Assembly (NCBI RefSeq): GCF_019704315.1
Contig: NZ_AP024597.1
Span: forward strand, 620,001-684,000
Direction: 5' to 3'
Source: Stygiolobus caldivivus
GTDB taxonomy: Archaea; Thermoproteota; Thermoprotei_A; Sulfolobales; Sulfolobaceae
DNA: 64,000 bases
A program made the position numbers and the translations under genes. Of the stretch, positions 3,778-15,907 are shown in pieces; the first letter of the stretch is position 1, and each line of letters starts with the position of its first letter. Below the pieces are notes generated by a model. It had not been told where the DNA came from, ran no database searches, and saw only the letters and a list, made by a program, of their open reading frames with translations.

Positions 3778-4829
3778 TAAGAGTAGCTATTGTAGGTGTA
3801 GGGAATGTAGCAAGTGCCCTATTGCAGTCTTTAGAGTGGGTAAAGCAGGGAAAACCTATATACGGTATTCTGACTTCTCTTCCTTACAGGCCAGAGGAAA
3901 TTGAAGTCGTAAGTGCTTTTGATATAGATAAAAGGAAGGTCGGAAAGAAATTATCTCAGGCTATATTTGAAAAACCCAATGTGGTGCCCAAGCAAGTAGA
4001 CGTCAAAAATGACGTAATTGTATTAAGAGGAGAAACACTAGACGGTAGGGAGGGCGTCTTGGAGAGGATTGTAGAGGAATCCGATGAAACACCGGTTGAC
4101 ATAATCAGTGAGTTAAAGAAGAATAAGGTAGATGTAGTGGTTAACTTACTACCTACGGGAGCACAGAAGGCTACAGAATTTTATGCTGAGAAGTCGTTAA
4201 ATGCATTTTCAAGTTTTATTAACACTACCCCCTCTTCAGTTGTCGAGAAATTTGACACTAAATTCAAGGAATCTCACATTCCCCTTATGGGCGATGACCT
4301 TTTAAGTCAGATAGGCGGGACTGCCTTACATACCGGTATTATTGAGTTCCTGAAGAGCAGAGGGGTTAGGGTAACTAGGACTTACCAAATAGACATCTCA
4401 GGTACGACAGAGACTTTAGTGACTCTTGAAGACTGGAGGAAGGAACTAAAGAAGGATATAAAAAGCCAATACATTTCCAAACATTCCAACGGGACTAATG
4501 TTGTAGCAGGTACCTCAGACTATGTAGAGTTCTTGGGAGATAGGAGGGTCAGTTACATGGTTATTGAGGGGGAATATTCTATAGGGATACCAGTTAGGGT
4601 TGATATATCCTTTAAATCGTATGATTCATTCAATGCTGTAGTCCCTTTAATCGACCTGATCAGGCTAGCTAAGTCATTAAAAGATAAGGGCATAGGAGGT
4701 TCTGTCCCTGAGATCTGCGGATATTACTTTAAAAAACCTCCAGTTATATATGATAGCATAGAGGAATCGAAGAAGGTTCTAATGGATTACGTTAATAAAG
4801 TGATGACAGAACCCCGGCTTGATAGATGA
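3774..4829 (+). CDS. ino1: myo-Inositol-1-phosphate synthase
   Basis: Converts glucose 6-phosphate to L-myo-inositol 1-phosphate with NAD, the entry step for archaeal inositol phospholipid head groups. The N-terminus has a Rossmann motif ([14 protein letters not shown], residues 4-17). [15 protein letters not shown] and [14 protein letters not shown] match the family's NAD and substrate sites. At 351 residues it has the short archaeal length; the eukaryotic enzyme is about 500. The start is a TTG whose last two bases overlap the nuoN TGA, implying translational coupling. It is the last gene of the run: the next gene is convergent. Lipid biosynthesis linked to a respiratory operon is notable but may only reflect position. 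Confidence 0.9.
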
Positions 4830-4929
4830 TATAACCGTATGAGAGCTGAGGTATCATGATAGGATCACAACAAGGTTGGGAATAAACTCCAAATTCTGGT
4901 TTTCCCCTTTAACCTCATCTATGCTTTCC

Positions 4930-10241: not shown

Positions 10242-11162
10242 ATGATGTTAAGGTTTTATAACGTAGTTTCGATAGCCATCTATGCTATAGCTCTAGTGCT
10301 AGTATACATGCTTGGTATACCTCTTATTAATATGCTGTTCTACCTAGCCTCGGTTTCCCTCAACTCTATCCCTTACTTTACTAGGCATGAAATAAAGGGT
10401 ATTAAAATTAAACATAAAGTCGATAAAGTTAAGGACGTGATACTAATCCCTTCTAAAAAATACATGGGTCTTTATGTACCATATAGTAAGAGAATGTATA
10501 TATCGTCGATAGCTTATGATATGCCCGACGTTTTTCTCTATATAAAATATCATGAGGAAGGGCACTCAAAACAGCCTTTCGACATAACGTATCACGTTTC
10601 TAGATCCTTATCCCCCTTTGCGCTAGCTTTCTCCTTGAAAGGTATCCTGGAAACTCACAGAAAATATAAGCTATTAATTAGGTTCCTTTCGACGGTTCAG
10701 CTAATCCTTTTTATTTCTCTCTTTATAGGGCCCTCATTTCTAGTGTCTTTATTTTCTGGGTCTATAATTACTATTTTAATTTTTGCCGTGGTTGAAGTAA
10801 TTCTCTTTTTATTAATAAATCATTTAGAATTTATATACAGTTTTTTCCTTTTTATTTTAATCTTTTTGGGGACTACCTACATAGGGCTCGTATCTTTAAC
10901 TGTCCTTCTGTTTTATATAGGGTATACTCTGCCTAGCCTGGCTTATGAAATCGACGCCGATAACCACGCCGCCATGAACCTAGAGGAAAGGATCCTTATA
11001 AGTTATCGATTATTTTCAGGAAATGAAGAGATCAAAACAAGCTTCCTAACATACGTATTATCCTTACTTTTCATGTTATCATCTACACACCCGTTTATTG
11101 GATACGAATATTCAAGGTTTTCAAAACTCGTGAAAAAGAGACAGAGTTCGCGGGGTGTTTAA
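10242..11162 (+). CDS. Divergent polytopic membrane metallopeptidase (M48/HtpX-like motifs)
   Basis: A 306-residue membrane protein. Helices are seen at about residues 8-40 and several between 140 and 235. KYHEEGHSKQP (about residues 105-115) carries an HExxH zinc motif. It is followed far downstream by YEIDADNHAA (about 236-245), matching the ExxxD zinc-ligand region of M48 peptidases, and STHPFIGYEYSRF near the end resembles the SDHPHPAKR signature of HtpX. The YSKRMYISS stretch before the zinc motif also fits the family. The rest is unlike the true HtpX at 58 kb. Two adjacent ATG codons (10242, 10245) could both start. It is an orphan in a gene-poor zone; the protease role is inferred from motifs. 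Confidence 0.65.
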   Translation: MMLRFYNVVSIAIYAIALVLVYMLGIPLINMLFYLASVSLNSIPYFTRHEIKGIKIKHKVDKVKDVILIPSKKYMGLYVPYSKRMYISSIAYDMPDVFLYIKYHEEGHSKQPFDITYHVSRSLSPFALAFSLKGILETHRKYKLLIRFLSTVQLILFISLFIGPSFLVSLFSGSIITILIFAVVEVILFLLINHLEFIYSFFLFILIFLGTTYIGLVSLTVLLFYIGYTLPSLAYEIDADNHAAMNLEERILISYRLFSGNEEIKTSFLTYVLSLLFMLSSTHPFIGYEYSRFSKLVKKRQSSRGV

Positions 11163-11404: not shown

Positions 11405-11412
11405 GGTTATTA
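11405..11412 (+). repeat. Left target-site duplication of element 1
   Basis: GGTTATTA, directly before the element terminus GGGAGTGTTC; an identical 8-mer follows the right terminus at 11735-11742. Confidence 0.85.
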
Positions 11413-11734
11413 GGGAGTGTTCTCAAACAGTCATCAAATTCGATAAGTATTTGTAAAAATATTAGAGTATTTATAAAAATTATTTTTACTATCTTGAACT
11501 ATGGAAAAGTCCTAGAATTGTAAAGGGAAAATATTGTTTTATGAAACATTATATGTATGAAGGTTATGGTGTCCTCGTAGGTGAGTCTAAAAAGCACAAG
11601 TTATTTACCCTTGTGTCTCCTTGAGAGGGGACACCCTTAAATGAGTTCATTTGAAGACGATTAAACACACTGCGTTAATTTGATATAATATTACAAATAA
11701 TTTTCAAATTTCGTGACTGCATGAGAACAGTCCC
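11413..11734. mobile_element. MITE-like non-autonomous element 1 with ~50-bp inverted repeats
   Basis: A 322-bp element. The left end begins GGGAGTGTTCTCAAACAGTC and the reverse complement of the right end begins GGGACTGTTCTCATGCAGTC. The two arms are identical at 40 of the first 50 positions. The element is bounded on both sides by a perfect 8-bp direct repeat, GGTTATTA. The interior has no transposase but holds a short ORF remnant. It lies between the membrane metallopeptidase gene and the 478-residue orphan. The ends and duplication are direct observations; which transposase family moved it is not determinable here. Families making 8-bp duplications (for example IS6, ISL3, IS66, IS256) are candidates. 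Confidence 0.85.
11541..11624 (+). pseudogene. Short ORF remnant inside element 1, HerA-like HAS-barrel start (tentative)
   Basis: A 27-codon ORF opens with ATG at 11541 and reads GYGVLVGESKKHKLFTLVSP before TGA. After the stop the same frame continues EGTPLNEFI and then stops again. This resembles the N-terminal HAS-barrel of HerA/VirB4-like ATPases (pattern G-V-V-G-E, then strand, then loop and YV), so it may be a captured and broken gene start. The match is by eye, and the segment is too short to be sure. Confidence 0.3.
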
Positions 11735-11742
11735 GGTTATTA
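11735..11742 (+). repeat. Right target-site duplication of element 1
   Basis: GGTTATTA, identical to 11405-11412 and directly after the terminal TCCC of the element. Confidence 0.85.
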
Positions 11743-13950: not shown

Positions 13951-14045
13951 TGGCGCCGCGGGGAGGACTCGAACCTCCGACCACCGGGTTTCTGTAGCAA
14001 ACCGGGCTTAACAGCCCGGCGCTCTGCCAACTGAGCTACCGCGGC
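13951..14045 (-). tRNA. tRNA-Asn (GTT) with intron, CCA encoded
   Basis: On the minus strand the gene reads GCCGCGG acceptor, GCTC-AGTTGGCA-GAGC D arm, CCGGG anticodon stem with loop CTGTTA, a 19-base intron, then A-CCCGG, variable TGGTC, GGAGG-TTCGAGT-CCTCC T arm, CCGCGGC, discriminator G and an encoded CCA. All stems pair perfectly once the intron is removed. The anticodon GTT reads AAC/AAU (Asn). The mature length is 76 with CCA. Without splicing the anticodon stem also pairs with the intron copy GCCCGG, which forms the bulge-helix-bulge exon-intron helix expected by archaeal splicing endonuclease. Confidence 0.95.
13990..14008 (-). other. tRNA-Asn intron, canonical 37/38 position
   Basis: Minus-strand AGCCCGGTTTGCTACAGAA, 19 bases, between A37 and A38. 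Its GCCCGG pairs with exon CCGGGC. The boundaries follow from restoring the 5-bp anticodon stem CCGGG/CCCGG. Confidence 0.85.
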
Positions 14046-15362: not shown

Positions 15363-15370
15363 ACTTATAG
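15363..15370 (-). promoter_or_regulatory. TATA box of the PaREP1 gene, abutting element 2
   Basis: CTATAAGT on the minus strand, centred 25 bases before the ATG at 15342. The next seven bases upstream (AAAAAGA on the minus strand) are the BRE position and are also the duplicated target of element 2. Confidence 0.6.
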
Positions 15371-15377
15371 TCTTTTT
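15371..15377 (+). repeat. Left target-site duplication of element 2
   Basis: TCTTTTT, repeated at 15651-15657 after the right end. With the preceding G (15370; also 15650) the match is 8 bases, GTCTTTTT. Confidence 0.7.
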
Positions 15378-15650
15378 GGGAGTATTCTCATGCAGTCGAT
15401 AATATGACAATACTATACCTAAATCTGATATTATCGTAATATCACCAAATAAGCCTCTTTGAATGGTGTTCTTTACTTAATGTAAAGCATAGCGCTGATG
15501 ATATTTAAAACGGTATTATTTAGCGTTCTCTAAGTCCCTGCCTCCTTATTAAATTAACGAAACTAATTATTGCGAAAAGAAAGCGTTTCTAGTCATACTA
15601 AAATTCCCGCTACTACTTATCGAATAAGGTGACTGAACGAGAACACACCG
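15378..15650. mobile_element. MITE-like non-autonomous element 2, same family as element 1
   Basis: A ~273-bp element. Its left end GGGAGTATTCTCATGCAGTC is nearly the same as the right end of element 1. Its right end, read inward on the minus strand, is CGGTGTGTTCTCGTTCAGTC and continues with ATTCGATAAGTA, also found in the left arm of element 1. A direct repeat of 7-8 bases (TCTTTTT) flanks it. The exact right boundary is 15649 or 15650, depending on whether the shared G belongs to the element. The interior differs from element 1 and has no transposase; a 34-codon minus-strand frame without a start lies inside. It is inserted just upstream of the PaREP1 promoter. Confidence 0.78.
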
Positions 15651-15907
15651 TCTTTTTTATAAATAGAGAATAATTACGTGTTCAACATGAAGTGATGATT
15701 GGACTAATAGCGTCTATTGGCTGAATTAATTCCCTTTGTATTTAAATTTTCACGGTTAGAAGCTAACCTTCCATAAGTGCCTGGGCACTTTATAAAAAGA
15801 TTTAAAGTATGTAAGAGCGCGCGATGTGTAATTAGTGTGAATAACTAAATAAAGTGAAAAGTTATAAAACATGTTTACCTAACTAATGATATTAATTAAT
15901 GAAATCT
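15651..15907. other. Gene-free stretch with a promoter-like site and C/D-box-like motif
   Basis: The right duplication of element 2 (15651-15657) runs into a TATA-like TTTTTATAAATAG (15653-15665). About 26 bases on, a box-C match GTGATGA (15692-15698) is followed by a 7-bp hairpin CTAATAG-CGT-CTATTGG and a box-D match CTGA (15721-15724). The C-D spacing of 22 bases is too short for a standard double-guide sRNA and too long for one half, so no RNA gene is called. Nothing else is seen. Confidence 0.3.

Follow-up and report, generated by a model that had tools for sequence, protein, structure and literature searches.

The window, i.e., the whole stretch of DNA analysed (64,000 bases), corresponds to positions 620001-684000 of the source genome of Stygiolobus caldivivus, a single contig of 2,958,410 bp. 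Two converging genes end at 11162 and 11967 of the window, and between them lies a 322-bp element (11413-11734), which is probably neutral. The element and its borders consist of the following parts.

11405..11412, no strand: left copy of the target-site duplication, GGTTATTA (sequence reading and flank scan)
11413..11462, + strand: left terminal inverted repeat, starting GGGAGTGTTCTC (repeat search and window scan; likeness to the left end of an IS)
11685..11734, - strand: right terminal inverted repeat, GGGACTGTTCTC when read from outside (repeat search and window scan; likeness to the right end of an IS)
11735..11742, no strand: right copy of the target-site duplication, GGTTATTA (sequence reading and flank scan)

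The two arms are 50 nt each with a spacing of 222 nt, and sequence reading and repeat search agree that they are complementary at 40 of 50 positions. Given the base composition of the window, the chance of complementary arms matching at 40 or more of 50 positions at one site was ~3e-15. Both copies of GGTTATTA are perfect, 8 bp long and directly adjoin the arms. Thus, the ~50-bp inverted repeats and the perfect 8-bp target duplication described in the initial annotation were both borne out. When spans of 250-399 bp were scanned over all 64,000 bases, the element was the sole one that combined arms matching at 36 or more of 50 positions with flanks identical at 8 of 8 positions. As single-stranded DNA, it folds much better than shuffled sequences (z = -4.95). 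No long reading frame was found inside the element, in agreement with the earlier statement that it contains no transposase.

The prospect of other genomic copies, raised in the same annotation, was realised in a whole-genome search, which yielded four more full-length copies with 90-95% identity to the window element as well as three divergent ones, so that five close and three divergent copies of the short form occupy unrelated sites. Their start positions are as follows.

1340140 (M1340), 2534028 (M2534), 2914824 (M2914) and ~1087150 (M1087): close copies
1211099 (M1211), 1306228 (M1306) and 1117852 (M1118): divergent copies, ~65-73% identity

The five close copies, including the window element, have common ends and a common middle of ~44 bp, are 322-326 bp long and show 90-99% identity. 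Their flanks are unlike one another, indicating that they were copied as units of 322-326 bp. Duplications of 8 bp are directly visible at two of the sister copies: M2534 lies between two copies of AAAGAATG, and AAGGTATT stands on both sides of M2914, where one end has an additional base. No duplication was visible when the flanks of M1340, M1087, M1211, M1306 and M1118 were compared. In addition, no identical second copy of the window element occurs in the genome, the nearest one having 95% identity, so that a very recent movement of the window copy is not indicated.

We then considered empty sites. The initial annotation had suggested looking for such a site in a relative; genome comparison gave none for the window copy, whose flanks lack close relatives among the genomes compared. 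Specifically, no relative of the upstream gene was found in 24 other genomes; for the downstream gene, a relative at 69% exists, yet the alignment of its flanks is not convincing. When the sequences on either side of M2534 were joined with a single AAAGAATG, a frame of 133 codons was restored, whose product aligns without gaps across the joint with intact plasmid proteins of pHVE14 (68%), pNOB8 (57%) and pB12E5 (57%), indicating that M2534 was inserted cleanly into a plasmid-type gene. Note that this empty site is defined at the level of homologous genes on Sulfolobales plasmids. The gene interrupted by M2534 (G000:C1:2534028-2534351; L081) is common to the three plasmids, which suggests an integrated plasmid remnant at ~2.53 Mb. 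No convincing interrupted gene was found at M1340 and M1087.

Full-length ISs with the same ends, on which the proposed transposition of the element depended, were found at about ten loci. In the whole-genome search, ~10 pairs of end matches were 1.13-1.17 kb apart and represent full or near-full IS copies. Perfect 8-bp duplications were present at IS1439, IS1320 and IS972 and at a nested IS at ~2,913,077-2,914,248, and four ISs in two related genomes also carried 8-bp duplications. The same duplication length is common to the window element, two of its sister copies, a second element in the window (described below) and IS copies of three genomes. Target duplications of ~8-9 bp are a trait of the IS1 family.

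The transposase frame is uninterrupted in two IS copies, namely the one at 2726878-2728049 and the nested one. The former (G000:C1:2726878-2728049), which served as the reference, is 1172 bp long, and its coding region (IS 161 to 1126) specifies a product of 321 aa. This product scored 115.9 bits against the NCBIfam IS1 transposase model NF033558 (cut-off 100) and 36.7 against Pfam DDE_Tnp_IS1 PF03400 (cut-off 24.1), and it has an IS1-type zinc-binding domain. Hence, transposition by a DDE enzyme, as originally proposed, is upheld in that ISs with the same ends encode an IS1-family DDE transposase, and the intact genes in these two copies supply the likely mover that had been predicted to reside elsewhere in the genome.

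Two further observations concern the IS copies themselves. The five most alike (96-98%), located at ~1439645, 1320729, 1311687, 972511 and 1327467 of the genome (L010, L012, L013, L014 and L015), share a 1-base deletion at IS 424, just before the run GGAAAAAC, which splits the transposase frame. Either intact copies mobilised them in trans, or the frame is restored by a -1 slip at the GGAAAAAC run, as in bacterial IS1. The region G000:C1:2911969-2914317 (L079) contains nested IS copies, the inner of which has the duplication AGTTTTTA and lies inside the end of another IS; M2914 is ~500 bp away. This region is a hot spot for the present IS1-type and MITE family.

We next aligned the window element with the reference IS. 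The alignment divides the element into three segments.

11413..11555, + strand: IS-derived left segment (IS 1-143, which stops short of the transposase start at position 161 of the IS), aligned over 148 columns at 80% identity
11556..11599, + strand: ~44 bp across the deletion junction, not clearly matched by the IS on either side
11600..11734, + strand: IS-derived right segment (IS 1034-1172), in which the last ~30 codons of the transposase survive as a remnant, aligned over 139 columns at 70% identity

In element coordinates, positions 1-143 correspond to IS 1-143, and positions 188-322 to IS 1034-1172. The first 80 bp are 91% identical to the left end of the IS, and the last 54 bp are 85% identical to its right end. 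The likeness also extends inward from these terminal parts: the left segment beyond the terminal 80 bp scored 12, where shuffled sequences reached 3 at most, and the right segment outside the terminal 54 bp scored 14, where they reached no more than -2. The ~44 bp at the junction, compared with IS 144-187 or IS 990-1033, scored no better than shuffles. IS copies from two genomes of a different genus gave the two-piece match as well, which brings the total to three genomes. Thus, the element lacks ~890 bp of the IS (~144-1033), comprising the transposase start and the catalytic core, and has ~44 bp instead. Given the extent of the coding region, the deletion eliminated the start codon together with almost the entire protein, indicating that the element is an internal-deletion derivative. 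Taken together, we consider it almost certain that 11413-11734 is a MITE, namely a non-autonomous internal-deletion derivative of a Sulfolobaceae IS1-family IS.

Two other explanations were weighed against this one. The IS copies in this genome are at many stages of decay, and deletions in their coding regions are common, so the window element could also be the decayed remnant of a full-length IS whose middle was lost at this very site, without having moved at its present size. This is hardly credible, since the five close copies have nearly the same length and the same ends and middle (90-99% identity) at unrelated sites, and three of the short copies have their own, different 8-bp duplications; such copies indicate that the short form itself was copied.

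The size of ~320 bp also suggested a copy of SMN1, an active non-autonomous element of Sulfolobus islandicus that is 320 bp long and has been termed a MITE (PMC3718332). SMN1 and SMN2 are non-autonomous and come from the same host family as the window element, and the length of SMN1 is nearly equal to its 322 bp. However, SMN stands for "Sulfolobus mobile non-inverted repeat" (PMC3839810), whereas the ends of the window element are of IS1 type, with inverted repeats of 50 bp and an 8-bp duplication outside them. Moreover, the mobilisation of SMN2, which is related to SMN1, has been credited to an IS200-type transposase (PMC3839810), unlike what the ends of the window element point to. Identity with SMN1, set apart here by description, was therefore dropped as very improbable.

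For the IS1-derived MITE, a route of mobilisation can be proposed. A full-length IS1-type DDE transposase supplied by another copy in the same genome would bind both terminal repeats and join the MITE to a staggered target cut, and repair of this cut would leave the 8-bp duplication. The MITE was presumably moved in trans in this way, as judged from the likeness of its two ends to those of the intact IS. The cut-and-join chemistry is established for IS1-family elements generally, and by analogy it would apply to the MITE.

Relatives of the MITE were also found outside this genome. Two genomes from a single other genus (G004 and G020) contain full-length relatives with 72-76% identity, and a diverged relative of ~399 bp occurs in G024, a genome that has the plasmid gene in common with S. 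shibatae B12. G015, from another Sulfolobaceae genus, has separate IS1-ended MITEs of ~326-332 bp, one copy of which shows a readable 8-bp duplication, GTTTGGAG. The G015 MITEs resemble the window element in size class and left end, but their right end and interior are from a different IS subgroup, and the similarity is good mainly at the left end. No MITE relatives were found in G001, which belongs to the same genus as the window, and no DNA similar to the window element was found in plasmid or phage collections. Searches with a pattern of MITE length and with the transposase were also negative in a collection of genome contigs, which evidently does not contain these relatives, as the pattern does match loci of the whole genomes. 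The copies in the other genus align end to end with the window element, and the alignment takes in the middle, for which an origin from the IS is not clear. Based on this alignment, we tentatively raise the possibility, somewhat short of an even chance, that this MITE represents an old, self-standing lineage which has persisted and spread between genera; it may have been transmitted in MITE form and maintained by one local IS1-type enzyme after another, instead of being re-formed from the IS of each genome.

The window contains a second, much diverged element at 15378-15649 (272 bp), whose ends, GGGAGTATTCTCATGCAGTC ... GAGAACACACC, are of the same kind; its perfect target duplication GTCTTTTT (8 bp) stands at 15370-15377 and 15650-15657. 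No other full copy of it was found in 31 genomes of the family. Two RNA genes were also noted in the window: a tRNA gene on the minus strand at 13951-14045, 95 nt long, with an ambiguous anticodon call (gtta) and probably with an intron, and a plus-strand match to the C/D-box RNA sR18 at 4798-4851 that exceeds the Rfam gathering score.

These results provide, from a thermophilic archaeon, a clear pair of parent (an IS1-type element) and derivative (its MITE), and one of the copies has an empty site. The pair is useful for the annotation of Sulfolobaceae genomes and is a ready substrate for trans-mobilisation tests with an archaeal IS1 transposase. The window MITE is an ordinary case of a known element type, with good support, and leaves the general understanding of such elements unchanged. 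We take its parent to resemble ISC1173, of the IS1 family of Sulfolobaceae, although no mention of ISC1173 was found in the literature searched; ISs of this type have the same terminal sequences and 8-bp duplication as the MITE. MITEs and IS elements have long been known in Sulfolobus (PMC3718332, PMC10969869). Among them, the Sulfolobus MITEs SM1-SM4 (Redder et al. 2001, as cited in PMC10969869 and PMC3718332) are, as far as these citing accounts describe them, comparable to the window MITE in being short, multicopy, non-autonomous and moved by IS transposases within the same archaeal family; in size, SM3A, given there as 164 bp and ISC1058-dependent, differs from the 322-bp window MITE.
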